From Melioribacteraceae bacterium (GTDB taxonomy: Bacteria > Bacteroidota > Ignavibacteria > Ignavibacteriales > Melioribacteraceae): a stretch of 64,000 nt of DNA. The DNA lies in assembly GCA_030584085.1 (NCBI GenBank), contig CP129490.1, positions 1,831,511 through 1,895,510 on the forward strand. Direction: 5' to 3'. Of the stretch, positions 4,334 through 19,586 are shown piece by piece (position 1 is the stretch's first letter; every line of letters starts with the position of its first letter). A program made the translations under genes and the position numbers. The notes beneath the pieces were generated by a model. The model was not told the DNA's origin. It was given only the letters and a program-made list of their open reading frames with translations, and did not search any database.

Positions 4334-4867
4334 ATGGTAAAAATTAAAAAGAGAAAATTAGGGGAAGCGTCAATTCCGACAAGTTCCATGGCGGATATCG
4401 CATTCTTGCTTTTACTCTTCTTCCTTGTTTCTACAAACATAGATGTTGATACCGGTATTGGTATGGTTCTTCCGGAATATATTCCTGCCGAAGAACAGGA
4501 ATTTGTTCCTATTTCTAAAGATAGAATGGCTGCTTTGCTTATAAATGAAAACGGAGACGTTCTTCTTGATGGAAATATTATTGCCATACCTCAAATCAAA
4601 GACAACCTTAAAGAGAGAATTGCCAGCAAAATTGAACTTCCAAGTAATAAAAAGTTAGTCGTTTCCGTTAAAACTGATAGGAAAACGGTTTACAATTTAT
4701 ACTTACAATCACTTGACCAAGTTAAAGGCGCTTACTTTGAGGTTAGGGAAGAGTATGCTAAAGTTCGTTTCGGTAAAACTATACAAGACTTGACACCGGA
4801 AGAACTTGAAGAAATACAAAGCAAGATTCCTATTATTATTTCTATTGCCGAACCTGAAAAGGTTTAG
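4334..4867 (+). CDS. exbD: ExbD/TolR biopolymer transport protein (first copy)
   Basis: Partner of the upstream ExbB-like channel, 177 residues. A short basic cytoplasmic tail (MVKIKKRKLGE) precedes a single membrane helix with the motif MADIAFLLLLFFLV. The Asp in that helix is the proton-relaying residue in this family. The rest is a periplasmic domain, here longer than in the second copy, with an acidic C-terminus. It ends in TAG, which shows that TAG is used as a genuine stop in this genome; this matters for the interrupted FadL gene. Confidence 0.9.
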   Translation: MVKIKKRKLGEASIPTSSMADIAFLLLLFFLVSTNIDVDTGIGMVLPEYIPAEEQEFVPISKDRMAALLINENGDVLLDGNIIAIPQIKDNLKERIASKIELPSNKKLVVSVKTDRKTVYNLYLQSLDQVKGAYFEVREEYAKVRFGKTIQDLTPEELEEIQSKIPIIISIAEPEKV

Positions 4868-8723: not shown

Positions 8724-10220
8724 ATGTTCAAAAAGATTCTTATTGCTAATAGAGGTGAAATTGCAGTAAGAATATCAAAAGCTTGCAGAGAAATGGGCAT
8801 TACCTCAGCCGTAATATATTCTGATGCCGATTTAAACTCACTTCACGTAAGAGTTGCAGATGAGGCTTACCGAATTGGTCCCGCACCGGCTAGTGAATCT
8901 TATCTTAACATTCCAAATATTATAAAACTCGCAAAAGAAATTAATGCTGATGCAGTGCATCCGGGATATGGATTCCTGTCCGAAAATTCAAAATTTATTC
9001 AAGCAGTTAATGACGCAGGGATAAAATTTATTGGACCATCCGTTAAATCTGTTGAGTTAATGGGTGAAAAGACTGCTGCAAGAAAATTAATGTCACAGCA
9101 CAATGTACCAATAGTTCCCGGGACACTTGAACCAATTTCCGACATCGATGAAGCTATTGATTATGCAAATGAAATTGGTTACCCAATTATGTTGAAAGCT
9201 TCTGCCGGCGGCGGTGGAAAAGGAATGAGGAAGGTAAATTCGGATAGCGAATTTAAATCCGCTTTTGAGCGAGCGCAAAATGAATCCATTAAAGCATTTG
9301 GATCTTCCGATGTTTACATGGAAAAGTTTATAGAAAACCCAAAGCATATTGAAGTACAAATAGTAGGAGATTCATTCGGAAACTACATTCATCTTTTTGA
9401 AAGAGAATGTTCCGTTCAAAGACGACATCAAAAAGTTGTTGAAGAAGCCCCATCGATTTCGGTTGATCAAGAAACGAGAAATAAAATTACGCAAGCCGGA
9501 ATTAATGCTGCCAAGGCATGTAATTATTTTAACGCCGGGACTATAGAATTTCTAATGGATAAAGAAAAAAAATTCTATTTCTTGGAAATGAATACACGAC
9601 TTCAAGTTGAACATCCGGTTACAGAATTAATAACCGGGTTTGACATAGTCAAAGAGCAAATAAGAATCGCTTACGGTGAAAAGCTATCGGTAACTCAAAA
9701 AGATATTATCTTACGTGGTCATGCAGTTGAATGCAGAATCTATGCGGAAGATGTTGATAATAACTTTGCACCTTCAACTGGCAAAATATTGCATCATAGA
9801 CTTCCATCTGGTCCGGGTATTAGAGTCGATCGTGGAATTGATTTATTAACTGAAGTTCCCGTGTATTATGATCCAATGTTATCAAAAGTAACTGCTTATG
9901 GTAAAGATAGAACTGAAGCTATTGCAAGGATTAAAATAGCCCTTGGGGCATATCAAATTGCCGGAGTAATATCTAACATTTCCTTTCTTGATTGGATAAT
10001 AGATCATCCGAAATTTGTGGACGGCTCCTTCGATATAAATTTTATCGACTCTGAATTTATGCCATTGGTCCCTCATAAATGGCGAGAAAAATATAATGAA
10101 GTTTACGAAGATGCTGCGGTTATTCTTGCGGCATTGCTAAAACATGATTCATCTAAATTAAATACCGGTAAAATAAAATCTAACCATACTAACCAATGGA
10201 TTAATCAGATTCATGAATGA
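8724..10220 (+). CDS. accC: Biotin carboxylase subunit (acetyl/acyl-CoA carboxylase)
   Basis: ATP-grasp enzyme that carboxylates biotin on a carrier protein with bicarbonate and ATP, 498 residues. The N-terminus FKKILIANRGEIAVRI is diagnostic. KASAGGGGKGMR (near residue 160), FERECSVQRRHQK and EMNTRLQVEHPVTE form the ATP- and biotin-binding centre. It starts directly on the mutS2 stop and overlaps the biotin carrier gene by 8 bases, so the two are translated together. No carboxyltransferase gene is next to it. The acyl-CoA substrate therefore cannot be fixed: acetyl-CoA for fatty acid synthesis, or propionyl-CoA. Confidence 0.95.
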   Translation: MFKKILIANRGEIAVRISKACREMGITSAVIYSDADLNSLHVRVADEAYRIGPAPASESYLNIPNIIKLAKEINADAVHPGYGFLSENSKFIQAVNDAGIKFIGPSVKSVELMGEKTAARKLMSQHNVPIVPGTLEPISDIDEAIDYANEIGYPIMLKASAGGGGKGMRKVNSDSEFKSAFERAQNESIKAFGSSDVYMEKFIENPKHIEVQIVGDSFGNYIHLFERECSVQRRHQKVVEEAPSISVDQETRNKITQAGINAAKACNYFNAGTIEFLMDKEKKFYFLEMNTRLQVEHPVTELITGFDIVKEQIRIAYGEKLSVTQKDIILRGHAVECRIYAEDVDNNFAPSTGKILHHRLPSGPGIRVDRGIDLLTEVPVYYDPMLSKVTAYGKDRTEAIARIKIALGAYQIAGVISNISFLDWIIDHPKFVDGSFDINFIDSEFMPLVPHKWREKYNEVYEDAAVILAALLKHDSSKLNTGKIKSNHTNQWINQIHE

Positions 10221-10713
10221 ATTGATAGTTAGTGTAGGAAATAAAAAACGTACTATAGGTATTTTGCCAGACGACAAAATAATTTTAGACGGTAAAGAAT
10301 TCAATGTAAACCTTTCTAAAGTGAGTGATTATTTATATCTCATAAAAATTAATGAGCGTGTTTATGAAGTAACAACAGTTAAGAAATCATCAAACGAGTT
10401 TTTTTTTACAATTGATGGACGTAATTATGAAGTCACGGCAAGAACAGCATTGCAAGAGAGAGCAAATGAAGTACTAAAACAAAAGGAATTACATGCAAAA
10501 ATTGATTCAATAAAAGCACCGATGCCAGGATTAATATTGAAAATATCGAAAAATATAGGCGAACATATTAATATTGGTGAACCACTAATAGTTCTCGAAG
10601 CTATGAAAATGGAGAATGAAATCAGGTCCCCATCATCAGGAACTATAACGGAAATAAATTATAAGCAAGGTGATTCTGTTGAAAAGGATGCCGTAATTCT
10701 TAAAATTGAATAA
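10213..10713 (+). CDS. Biotin/lipoyl attachment carrier protein
   Basis: Biotin carboxyl carrier partner of the preceding biotin carboxylase, 166 residues. The C-terminal half is a biotinyl domain with the attachment motif EAMKMENEI; the modified lysine is about residue 132. A flexible stretch precedes it (KAPMPGLILKI starts the domain), and the N-terminal 90 residues form a small uncharacterised domain. That layout fits carriers of acyl-CoA carboxylases and decarboxylase-type enzymes better than classical AccB, which has an Ala/Pro-rich linker. It overlaps accC by 8 bases. Confidence 0.88.
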   Translation: MNELIVSVGNKKRTIGILPDDKIILDGKEFNVNLSKVSDYLYLIKINERVYEVTTVKKSSNEFFFTIDGRNYEVTARTALQERANEVLKQKELHAKIDSIKAPMPGLILKISKNIGEHINIGEPLIVLEAMKMENEIRSPSSGTITEINYKQGDSVEKDAVILKIE

Positions 10714-10785
10714 AAACATAGTTGTAAATATAGATTTTATATACCTATATTCTTGGTCTAAAAATCAACTATCTCAGGAGGAGAC

Positions 10786-12072
10786 GTGAAGAAAACACTA
10801 CTTTCTATTTTTGTAACCTTGCTTGCATTAAATACTGGAATATTTGCAAGCGGTTTTCAAATTAATGAGCACGGTGCACGTGCAATGGCGATGGCCGGTG
10901 CTTTTACTGGTTTAGCTACAGATGCTTCTACAATATATTATAACCCAGCCGGGCTTACAAATTTAAGAGGTACTAACATTTTAGCAGGTGTTACGCTTAT
11001 CGCCCCAAGCGCTAAGTTTCAAGGACCATTACCGTTAACCACAGAATAGGAAATGGAATCTCAATTATTTACTCCTTTTAACTTTTACATTACACATAGC
11101 TTTGAAAATAATCTCAGCATTGGCTTAGGTGTTAATAACCAATACGGTTTGGGTACCAAATGGGCAAGTGATTGGGCAGGTAGATACTTAGCAGTTGATA
11201 CTGAAATCCGATCATTTTATTTTACTCCCGCAATTGCTTATAAAATTTCGGACGCTGTTTCCATTGGTATTGGTGGTGTTTTCGCTCTTGCGGATGTTAA
11301 AATTATCAGAAATATTCCTCTCCAAGATCCTGTGACAGGTGCTATGAAACCTGACGGGGAAGTTTCTATGGAAGGTGACGGAAACTCATTTGGATTTTCT
11401 GCTGGAATATTCGTTAAGCCAAGTGATATGGTTTCTCTCGGTTTAAGTTATAGAAGCCAAAATGCTTATGATTTTGAAGGCACAGCAACAACAACTCCGG
11501 CAACTTTAGATTTCAATCATCCATTGGCAGGTCCGCAATCAATCCCTTTACCTCATGGTGCGATTAAAGCTCCTTTAACAACTCCACAAAATGTTACTTT
11601 CGGTATTGGATTGACTCCTTCTAAAGACTTAACACTTTCTGCTGATTTTCAATGGATTGACTGGACAAGTTACGATAAATTAGAAGTAACTTTTGAAGAA
11701 TATGATCTTGATCCACAAACACCAGGCGATCAAAATGTTCAATCTGCTGACCGTAATTATGAAACCTCATTTATTATAAGAGTAGGCGCTGAGTATATGT
11801 TGAGTGATGCGTTCGCACTTCGTGGTGGATTCTTATACGATAAAAACCCTGTGTTAGATGAATATGTTGAACCAACTCTACCTGATGCGAACAGAATTGG
11901 TATCAATGTCGGTTTTGGATATAAGATTTCCGAAAGTGTATCAGTTGATTTCGCATACCTATTGTTGTTATTCCAAGAAAGATCAATAACAACATCAAAA
12001 TTTGGGTTCAATGGCACTTATAATTCTTCAGCACACTTGTTCGGAATTAATTTTGCATATGCAATAAATTAA
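10786..12072 (+). pseudogene. FadL/OmpP1-family outer-membrane transporter interrupted by an in-frame TAG
   Basis: Outer-membrane beta-barrel of the FadL family (long-chain fatty acid or other hydrophobic compound uptake). A GTG start follows a strong AGGAGGAG site. Residues 1 to about 22 form a signal peptide, and the mature N-terminus SGFQINEHGARAMAMAGAF is the classic FadL plug. After residue 87 the codon at 11047-11049 is TAG. The same frame continues without other lesion (next codons Glu-Met from 11050) to 12072, with strand motifs such as SIGLGVNNQYGLGTKW and a C-terminal aromatic/hydrophobic strand. Full length read through the TAG would be about 428 residues, normal for FadL. It may be a recent nonsense mutation, readthrough or a sequence error. 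Confidence 0.8.
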
Positions 12073-12079
12073 TTAAATT

Positions 12080-12106
12080 AGGGATGGTTATACCATCCCT
12101 TTTTTT
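12080..12106 (+). terminator. Intrinsic terminator after the FadL-family gene
   Basis: AGGGATGGT (12080-12088) and ACCATCCCT (12092-12100) form a perfect nine-pair stem with a three-base loop, followed by a run of seven T. It ends 10 bases before the next ATG. Confidence 0.9.
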
Positions 12107-12116
12107 AGAGCATATA

Positions 12117-12542
12117 ATGAAAACTAAAATTGCATTTCTAATATCGCTATCATTTCTAATAGTCACAGCTTGTTCATCATCCGAAGAAACTACACAAAAC
12201 GAACAAGAAAAAGAAGAACCGGAAATATATGTATTTGATGATGTGACAGAACCGGTTGATACGGTAGAACAAAAAGTTATTGAACAACCAAAAGTTGATC
12301 CGCCGACAACTACGATGTATTATGTTCAAGTCGGGGCTTTTACTACTAAAGATCGGGCTGAACAATTTGTTAAAGAAAAATCTTCAAAGACAACTTACCA
12401 ATTAAATATTACCTACAGCGATGAGGTTCGTTTATTTGTAATACGGCTTCCTGGTTTTGCAACAAAAGCTGAGGCTGAAAAAGTTCGTAATGAATTCTGG
12501 CAGTCAGGTGTATTTAATGATGCCTTCATAGTTACTCAATAA
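12117..12542 (+). CDS. SPOR-domain lipoprotein
   Basis: Predicted lipoprotein of 141 residues that binds peptidoglycan at denuded glycan strands through its SPOR domain. The N-terminus is a signal peptide with lipobox LIVTAC (Cys19), followed by an acidic, glutamate-rich linker. The C-terminal 75 residues hold the SPOR domain, starting at TMYYVQVGAFTTKDRAEQF. I chose the ATG at 12117 over an in-frame upstream start at 12084, because only the former gives a proper lipoprotein signal and the latter lies inside the terminator hairpin. The stop is two bases from the next gene. Confidence 0.87.
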   Translation: MKTKIAFLISLSFLIVTACSSSEETTQNEQEKEEPEIYVFDDVTEPVDTVEQKVIEQPKVDPPTTTMYYVQVGAFTTKDRAEQFVKEKSSKTTYQLNITYSDEVRLFVIRLPGFATKAEAEKVRNEFWQSGVFNDAFIVTQ

Positions 12543-16288: not shown

Positions 16289-17954
16289 AACGTCAATTCT
16301 TATTTTTTTTGTTGTCACCTCTTTAATATTTGCTTCAGGCGATTTAGTCTATTCCAAAAATGGAATGGTTGTATCTGCTAGTGAATTAGCAAGTGAAGTC
16401 GGGGTTGAAATTCTTAAAAAAGGCGGTAACGCTGTTGACGCTGCCGTTGCAACAGGCTTTGCATTAGCTGTTACATATCCATCTGCAGGTAACATTGGCG
16501 GTGGCGGATTCATGGTTTTGCACATCAACGGTAAGAATACTTCAATTGATTTTCGAGAAACCGCGCCCGGGCAGTCATCTCAATATATGTTTTGGGATTC
16601 TACTGGTAAACATGATCCCAATAAGAGTCTTAAAAGCTGGAAATCGATCGGAATTCCCGGAACAGTAGCTGGATTTATTTACGTTTTAGAAAAATACGGT
16701 ACAATGACACTCGAAGAAGTTTTAGAGCCTGCAATTAAATTAGCAGAAGAGGGTTTTGAACTTGATTATTGGTTAGCAAATTTTATTAATTCATACAATA
16801 AAGAATTCGTTTTAATCCCTTCGTCTCGTAAAATATTTACGAATAATGGTGAAAATCTTACGGTTGGACACTCGTTCGTTCAAAAAGATTTAGCCAAAAC
16901 ACTCAAGCTTATTCAAAAAAAAGGAGTGGATGGTTTTTATACAGGTGAGATTGCAGATCTTTTGGTTGATCAGTCAACACAAAATGGAGGATTAATAACT
17001 CATCAAGATTTACAAAATTATAAAGTTATAGAACGAATTCCGTTGATTGGTGACTATAAAAAATATACTATATTAGGCATGCCACTGCCATCAGCGGGTG
17101 GAATTGGAATTTTACAATCACTAAAAGTATTTGAAAAGTTTTCATTCATAGATGAAGAATGGGGATCATCAAAATATGTGCATACCTTAAGTGAAATATT
17201 CAAATATGTTTATTCGGATAGAGCAAAGTTTTTAGGTGATAGTGATTTTGTAGATGTAATTATTGATTCTCTAATTTCCTCGAAACGAGTTAATGAAGTA
17301 TTTTCAAGCATTAATGAAATGGCAATTCCCTCAGAACAAATTACAAATCCGAATATGCCGGTATATGAAAGTCCCGAGACTACCCACTATTCCGTTGTTG
17401 ATAAATTTGGAAATGCAGTCAGCATTACATATACCATAAATTCTTCATTTGGCAATAAAATTGTTTTAGAAGGAGCAGGCTTTTTATTAAATAACGAGAT
17501 GGACGATTTTTCATCGCAAGTTGGGATTCCAAATCAATTTGGATTAGTAGGAAGTAAAGCCAATGCTATCGAACCTGGTAAAAGAATGTTGAGCTCTATG
17601 ACTCCGACAATTGTTTTAAAAGATAATAATCCAATTTTGGTTCTGGGTTCGCCTGGTGGATCAACTATCATTACTTCAGTTTTGCAAGTTATCATAAATG
17701 TATTAGATTTTGGAATGGATATTAGAGAAGCTATCAATGCTCCAAGATTTCATCATCAATGGCTGCCTGATCGATTGGATTATGAAAGATTTGGATTAGC
17801 CACAGATTTAATTGATAATCTCAATAATCGTGGTCATATGCTTAATGAGGTAAAATCGTTGGGTAGAGTTGAGGGAATATTTATTGATCAATCTGATGGA
17901 ATTATTTGGGGTTCATCAGATAAACGAGGTTTCGGTAAAGCGGTAGGATATTAA
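16266..17954 (+). CDS. ggt: Gamma-glutamyltransferase
   Basis: Periplasmic Ntn-hydrolase that cleaves or transfers the gamma-glutamyl group of glutathione and related compounds, about 562 residues. A signal peptide (residues 1 to about 22) is followed by the mature large-subunit motif GGNAVDAAVATGFALAVTYP. The autoprocessing site is TTHYSVVDKFGNAVSITYT, whose first Thr (about residue 372) becomes the nucleophile of the small subunit. The later motif SSMTPTIVL and LGSPGGSTI complete the active site. The ATG at 16266 gives the signal peptide and overlaps the MCE gene by 23 bases. Confidence 0.93.
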   Translation: MRTSVSSRTSILIFFVVTSLIFASGDLVYSKNGMVVSASELASEVGVEILKKGGNAVDAAVATGFALAVTYPSAGNIGGGGFMVLHINGKNTSIDFRETAPGQSSQYMFWDSTGKHDPNKSLKSWKSIGIPGTVAGFIYVLEKYGTMTLEEVLEPAIKLAEEGFELDYWLANFINSYNKEFVLIPSSRKIFTNNGENLTVGHSFVQKDLAKTLKLIQKKGVDGFYTGEIADLLVDQSTQNGGLITHQDLQNYKVIERIPLIGDYKKYTILGMPLPSAGGIGILQSLKVFEKFSFIDEEWGSSKYVHTLSEIFKYVYSDRAKFLGDSDFVDVIIDSLISSKRVNEVFSSINEMAIPSEQITNPNMPVYESPETTHYSVVDKFGNAVSITYTINSSFGNKIVLEGAGFLLNNEMDDFSSQVGIPNQFGLVGSKANAIEPGKRMLSSMTPTIVLKDNNPILVLGSPGGSTIITSVLQVIINVLDFGMDIREAINAPRFHHQWLPDRLDYERFGLATDLIDNLNNRGHMLNEVKSLGRVEGIFIDQSDGIIWGSSDKRGFGKAVGY

Positions 17955-17955
17955 T

Positions 17956-18339
17956 ATGATTTTTGGAATTGGTGTTGATATAATCGAGATTGATCGAATA
18001 AAAAAAAGTATTGAAAAATTCGGTGATAAATTCTTAAATAAAATTTATACTGAAAAAGAGCTTCAATACTGTGAATCAAAAAAAAATAAGTACCAACATT
18101 ATGCTGCAAGGTTTGCTGCTAAAGAAGCAATTTACAAAGCGATGTCAACCGGTTGGAAAAAGGGTACGAGTTGGAAAAATATTGAGATATACAACGAACC
18201 GAATGGAATGCCCAATGTTCATCTTTTTGGTCAATTAAACGATTTCATAAATCCAGATAAAGAATTAAAAATCACCATGAGTCATTCCGATAACTACGTG
18301 ACGGTCTTTGCAATCCTTTACACTAAAAACTCTCACTGA
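17956..18339 (+). CDS. acpS: Holo-[acyl-carrier-protein] synthase
   Basis: Transfers the 4'-phosphopantetheine arm from CoA to acyl carrier protein, needed for fatty acid synthesis. It has 127 residues, the usual AcpS length. The metal-binding motif GIGVDIIEIDRI is at the N-terminus, and RFAAKEAIYKAM carries the second acidic ligand. The C-terminal MSHSDNYVTVFAI is also typical. It starts one base after the ggt stop. A long-looped inverted repeat follows at 18353-18400. Confidence 0.94.
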   Translation: MIFGIGVDIIEIDRIKKSIEKFGDKFLNKIYTEKELQYCESKKNKYQHYAARFAAKEAIYKAMSTGWKKGTSWKNIEIYNEPNGMPNVHLFGQLNDFINPDKELKITMSHSDNYVTVFAILYTKNSH

Positions 18340-18352
18340 TTTGATTTACAAG

Positions 18353-18400
18353 CTTAGAGTGCTTCAAAAATACTAAAAATACAATTTATGCACTCTTAAG
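18353..18400. repeat. Inverted repeat downstream of acpS
   Basis: AGAGTGC (18356-18362) is matched by GCACTCT (18390-18396), and the flanking CTT/AAG pairs extend the stem past one bulged base. The 27-base loop is A/T-rich. There is no T-run, so it is not a standard intrinsic terminator. It may be a Rho-type 3' end or a regulator site in the 146-base gap before mnmA. Confidence 0.4.
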
Positions 18401-18485
18401 TTATTGTTTAGTAAGTAGTTATGTAAATTATTATATTTATGATTTGGTTTTAAGATAATATATCGATTTATAGAAAGGTAGTACT

Positions 18486-19586
18486 TTGAACGATAATAGA
18501 GTAATCGTTGCAATGAGTGGTGGTGTAGACTCCTCTGTAGCTGCTGCATTGCTTCATGAACAAGGGTATGATGTAATTGGTGTAACAATGAAGACTTGGG
18601 GCTTCATGGAGGTCGGAGGAGCTCCAAAACACGAATCAGGATGCTGCTCACTTGACGCAATCTTCGATGCGAAAAATGTTGCAAATAAATTTAATATTCC
18701 TCATTACACAGTAGATTTTACAAAAGCATTTGAAAACGCAGTGATCGATAATTTTGTTGATGAGTATTTGAGCGGCAGAACACCAAATCCATGTGTAATA
18801 TGTAATCGCAAAATTAAATGGGAAGAACTTCTTCTTAAAGCAGATGCCTTAGACGCAAAATTTGTTGCAACCGGACATTATGCCATAGTGGAATATGATC
18901 ATGAAAATAATCGTTATAGACTAAGAAATTCTGCTGATAATAGAAAAGATCAATCATATGCACTTTGGGGATTAACTCAAGAAAGTTTAAGCAGAACTTT
19001 GTTTCCGCTTGGAAATTATAATAAAACTCAAGTTCGTGGATTAGCTGAAAAGTTTGGTTTGAAAACTGCCGGAAAACCTGATAGTCAAGAAATATGTTTT
19101 GTAGCAGATAACAACTACGAAAGATTTTTAAAAGAAAGAATTCCGGATGTCATTGAAAATATAGAACAAGGTGAGATGATCTATCATGGTGAGAAAGTAG
19201 GAACTCATAGAGGAATTCCTTTTTATACTGTTGGACAAAGAAAAGGTCTCGGCGTCGCAATGGGGAAGCCGGTCTATGTAAAAAAAATTGATCATCGAAG
19301 TAATACAATAGAAATAGGTGATAAAGAAGAAATAAATCAATCGACACTTTATGCCGAAGAAGTAAACTATGTTAGTACTTTGAATTTAGAATTAGGCCAA
19401 ATAGTTTTTGCAAAGATTAGATATAACGACAAAGGTTCAACTGCAAAAGTTATTTCATTTTCAGATACAGAGTTTGTGATTGAATTTGATGAACCAAAAT
19501 CAGCTATTACTCCTGGTCAATCTGCTGTAATATATGATTCGAATGGCTTTGTTTTAGCTGGAGGAATAATCAGCAAAGGTGAATAG
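18486..19586 (+). CDS. mnmA: tRNA-specific 2-thiouridylase MnmA
   Basis: Installs 2-thiouridine at the wobble base of tRNA Lys, Glu and Gln, 366 residues. The N-terminal PP-loop VAMSGGVDSSVAAALL binds ATP. The two catalytic cysteines lie in NPCVICNRKIKW and DSQEICFVADN, as in the bacterial family, and GQRKGLGVA is in the tRNA-binding part. The start is TTG, placed directly before NDNRVIVAMSGG and after an AAGG ribosome site. Upstream is a 146-base gap, so it likely has its own promoter. Confidence 0.95.
   Translation: MNDNRVIVAMSGGVDSSVAAALLHEQGYDVIGVTMKTWGFMEVGGAPKHESGCCSLDAIFDAKNVANKFNIPHYTVDFTKAFENAVIDNFVDEYLSGRTPNPCVICNRKIKWEELLLKADALDAKFVATGHYAIVEYDHENNRYRLRNSADNRKDQSYALWGLTQESLSRTLFPLGNYNKTQVRGLAEKFGLKTAGKPDSQEICFVADNNYERFLKERIPDVIENIEQGEMIYHGEKVGTHRGIPFYTVGQRKGLGVAMGKPVYVKKIDHRSNTIEIGDKEEINQSTLYAEEVNYVSTLNLELGQIVFAKIRYNDKGSTAKVISFSDTEFVIEFDEPKSAITPGQSAVIYDSNGFVLAGGIISKGE

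Follow-up and report, generated by a model that had tools for sequence, protein, structure and literature searches.

In this genome of an uncultured Melioribacteraceae species (order Ignavibacteriales) a gene of the fadL/ompP1 family is interrupted by a single in-frame TAG. The stop probably arose not long ago by a nonsense mutation, a single transition at position 11048 that inactivates the gene in this lineage. It was met in a stretch of 64,000 nucleotides (the window) of a genome that consists of one contig of 3.74 Mb and is 99.35% complete. The gene and its surroundings are laid out as follows, in window positions:

8724-10220: putative biotin carboxylase, upstream of the biotinyl-carrier gene (from the list of open reading frames)
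10213-10713, + strand: putative biotinyl-carrier-type protein, upstream of fadL (from the same list; function read from the protein sequence)
10778-10785, + strand: Shine-Dalgarno-like aggaggag ahead of the fadL GTG (sequence as read)
10786-12072, + strand: interrupted gene of the fadL/ompP1-family outer-membrane transporter (GTG start, 428 codons plus TAA)
10786-11046, + strand: fadL part one, 87 codons with a signal-peptide-like N-terminus and a plug with NPA motif (PF03349)
11047-11049, + strand: in-frame TAG, at which the second genome of the species and both same-genus genomes encode Trp
11050-12072, + strand: fadL part two, the beta-barrel, with an internal Met at 11053 and without a signal peptide of its own (PF03349)
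12117-12542, + strand: putative SPOR-type lipoprotein, intact, downstream of fadL (function read from the protein sequence)

The first-pass annotation described two halves of one FadL protein in the same frame, separated by a single TAG. Translation and collinear profile matches bear this out. The only internal stop of the 428-codon frame is the TAG at codon 88, and the frame ends with an ordinary TAA at 12070-12072. Family membership was judged by the curated score cut-off of PF03349 (Toluene_X, OMPP1/FadL/TodX), which is 29.7 bits; with 236.6 bits the whole frame lies above it. The upstream half (87 aa) matches profile positions 6-71 (E = 2.9e-10, 39.7 bits) and the downstream half positions 95-420 (E = 3.3e-57, 194.3 bits). 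The two halves are thus collinear on the profile and together complete. A genome-wide profile search also recovered this gene as a single frame, 436 aa long, and flagged "1 TAG" within it. In the plug, NPALI of E. coli FadL has its aligned counterpart in YYNPAGL of the ortholog. Judged by its sequence, the interrupted gene is a FadL/OmpP1-family outer-membrane transporter; the family carries long-chain fatty acids or other hydrophobic compounds. It resembles the solved members of the family (E. coli FadL, 1t16 and 3dwn; P. aeruginosa, 3dwo) in its collinear full-length match, its NPA plug motif and its similar size, but it is distant from them in sequence and interrupted at codon 88.

Comparison with relatives shows which state is the older one. 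The collections hold two genomes of this species. The second, SURF_28 (L036; G058 by position), is 99.1% identical to the window over 8805 bases and carries a whole fadL. Between the two genomes the gene differs by six substitutions in 429 codons, without indel or rearrangement; three of the six are non-synonymous, and one of these is the stop. Where the window has TAG, the codon of SURF_28 is one for Trp, and so it is in both same-genus genomes; the stop is hence derived on the branch that leads to the window. Intact orthologs and a derived stop are what one expects of a nonsense allele (unitary pseudogene). The annotation proposed to compare the same locus in related genomes; there the gene is whole and has a sense codon. 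The codon it guessed (CAG, AAG or GAG) was not the one found, since the relatives encode Trp rather than Gln, Lys or Glu.

The wider family gives the same picture. A fadL match was found in 54 of the 58 relatives searched, and no other full-length homologue in these 54 genomes has an internal stop. The only other stop among the relatives lies in a partial match, about 60 aa long, from a fragmented genome. Across the family the residue aligned with codon 88 is Y, T, W, S, V or E; a position that varies this much does not imply a special or recoded residue. The aggagg core ahead of the start codon is also found in the relatives L036-L039. In several relatives, too, the biotinyl-carrier gene adjoins fadL, and DNA similarity runs from one gene into the other, which shows that the neighbourhood is conserved.

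If TAG is read as a stop, translation would start at GTG 10786 and end after 87 residues. The truncated product would comprise signal peptide and plug but no more of the barrel than its start. The remainder could be translated only by a restart at an internal Met, without a signal peptide. No working porin from the interrupted gene would then reach the outer membrane. Two steps here are inferences: the base is taken as real, and the function as lost. The change itself is young, as the remainder of the frame is undamaged. Two points speak against a nonsense allele: nearly every member of the family has the gene, so its loss may be costly, and there is no second disabling mutation in fadL that would confirm a pseudogene. 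A second, distant FadL-family gene lies above the family cut-off in this genome, as it does in both same-genus genomes, and might soften the loss.

Nothing in the genome suggests that TAG is decoded. The annotation noted that TAG is a true stop elsewhere in the window, at 4867 and 19586; both sites belong to the 6 of 65 window ORFs that end in TAG. Release factor RF1 is intact. These six genuine stops and the intact RF1 rule out a genome-wide reassignment of TAG. The search for a suppressor tRNA that the annotation proposed came back empty: none of the 47 tRNA matches in the genome has a CUA anticodon. ARAGORN called 45 of them, none with CUA. The two that it did not call (L099 and L100) were considered as suppressors and rejected, as their anticodons are CGU and GAA and they are Thr-like and Phe-like fragments. 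No pyrrolysyl-tRNA synthetase (PylS) was found in the genome, which together with the missing CUA tRNA rules out pyrrolysine. Downstream of the stop, the folding of the RNA does not surpass that of shuffled sequences (z = 1.15), so a structured recoding signal is ruled out as well. Nor is the stop kept at this site in relatives, because all orthologs inspected have sense codons. Hence none of the marks of UAG recoding (a CUA tRNA, with PylS in the case of pyrrolysine, and conservation of the stop) is present. Given the intact RF1, the lack of PylS and of a CUA tRNA, the chance-level folding of the RNA and the TAG stops in the window, the default expectation is that translation terminates after 87 residues.

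The annotation had offered four options: a nonsense mutation, an error, phase-like silencing and readthrough. The nonsense mutation is the best supported of them. Phase variation, whether by repeat-tract slippage or by inversion, finds no support: the difference is one substitution, and no indel, repeat or inversion accompanies it. The error is the option that still deserves weight. The TAG may have entered through an error of consensus or assembly, or the sequence may have picked up a minority base from a mixed metagenome population, with the gene intact in the organism. Speaking for an error, the change is a single transition, and the gene otherwise shows normal constraint and is found almost throughout the family. 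The quality of the genome sequence was gauged by comparing 264 kb around and including the window with a genome of the same genus (G002), which shares 173 ORFs there (about 65,000 aligned residues). In these 264 kb and 173 ORFs only the fadL stop is a clear nonsense interruption. Its being the only such break is what an isolated error would look like, but it also means that the assembly is good, as no frameshift and no further nonsense break was seen in the shared ORFs. A few other stops were flagged against the same genome; they lie in antisense shadow ORFs or in the TTG-extended N-terminus of a NUDIX-like gene, not in broken genes. Of the polarised differences, 20 belong to the window alone and 32 to SURF_28 alone; their spectrum is mixed and not biased to one type of error. 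The window-private changes do not exceed those of SURF_28, so the window carries no excess of errors. The clean assembly and the lack of such an excess favour a real mutation, and an error at this base is unlikely.

The readings that keep the protein in use fare worse. Some full-length porin could arise if the codon-88 TAG were decoded at some level, by a near-cognate tRNA or a suppressor. Basal readthrough of UAG exists in bacteria generally, and because codon 88 tolerates many residues, the protein would probably accept whichever amino acid was inserted. Yet the intact RF1, the missing CUA tRNA and PylS, the chance-level RNA structure and a stop that is conserved in no relative all stand against this, and readthrough is very unlikely. 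The TAG could also be maintained, as low-level readthrough or as an on/off polymorphism that tunes the amount of FadL porin in the population. This we regard as very unlikely indeed; if it were true, the polymorphism might reflect, for example, a trade-off between nutrient uptake and the entry of phage or toxic lipids. Finally, the gene could have split into two working products, the second made by restarting at ATG 11053, which follows the stop codon at a distance of three bases. The ATG sits one codon past the TAG, where a restart after termination is possible. However, it is an ancestral internal Met that close relatives with a whole gene have too, the AGGA ahead of it leaves a spacing of one base, and the restart product would lack signal peptide and plug. 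Two separate genes, the arrangement that the annotation said would speak against its view, occur in no relative; the relatives have one whole gene. A split gene is thus extremely unlikely. The case calls for no new coding rule: an ordinary mutation that inactivates the gene explains it or, less likely, a wrong base.

Nonsense alleles of fadL have been described before, as a recurrent event, in other bacteria. In Legionella pneumophila, lpg0707 (OmpP1/FadL) carries two independent premature stops in clinical isolates, and 33 of 2737 homologues (1.2%) are truncated (PMC10132064). As in the window, these are single-base premature stops within a species, one of them a change from Trp to stop; unlike the window allele, which is known from one genome, they were found repeatedly, in independent isolates, and evidence points to parallel selection (PMC10132064). 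Repeated fadL truncations are also reported in Haemophilus (PMC9927455). According to that source and the work cited there, some lineages of H. influenzae have lost FadL (ompP1), which again resembles our case. The H. influenzae truncations, however, are single-base indels (PMC9927455), whereas in the window, which comes from an environmental bacterium, a substitution made the stop. The porin is nearly universal in the family, and its loss in a single strain matters little in itself. If the base is real, it adds an environmental, non-pathogen case to the recurrent within-species loss of FadL-family porins.

Some further features were observed on the way. Over the 8.8 kb compared, the window and SURF_28 differ by a sole indel, one T at window position 12099 in a run of T that follows fadL; the run is probably the terminator. 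Elsewhere in the genome, an element of about 10 kb is integrated at tRNA-Phe, reaching from about position 11850 of L110 (G000:C1:1975511-1995510) to G000:C1:1997339. Both of its ends carry a 104-bp repeat, 99% identical, that contains part of the tRNA. A tyrosine-recombinase-like ORF (L110:12011-13027) lies just inside, followed by a DnaB-like helicase ORF (17646-19067); the whole is probably a small integrative element. At G000:C1:936128-936200 and 938615-938677 (L054, L099) there is an exact repeat of 60 bp, in which the 3' part of tRNA-Thr (CGT) is included. The repeat copy lies about 2.4 kb from the intact tRNA-Thr and looks like the trace of another insertion.
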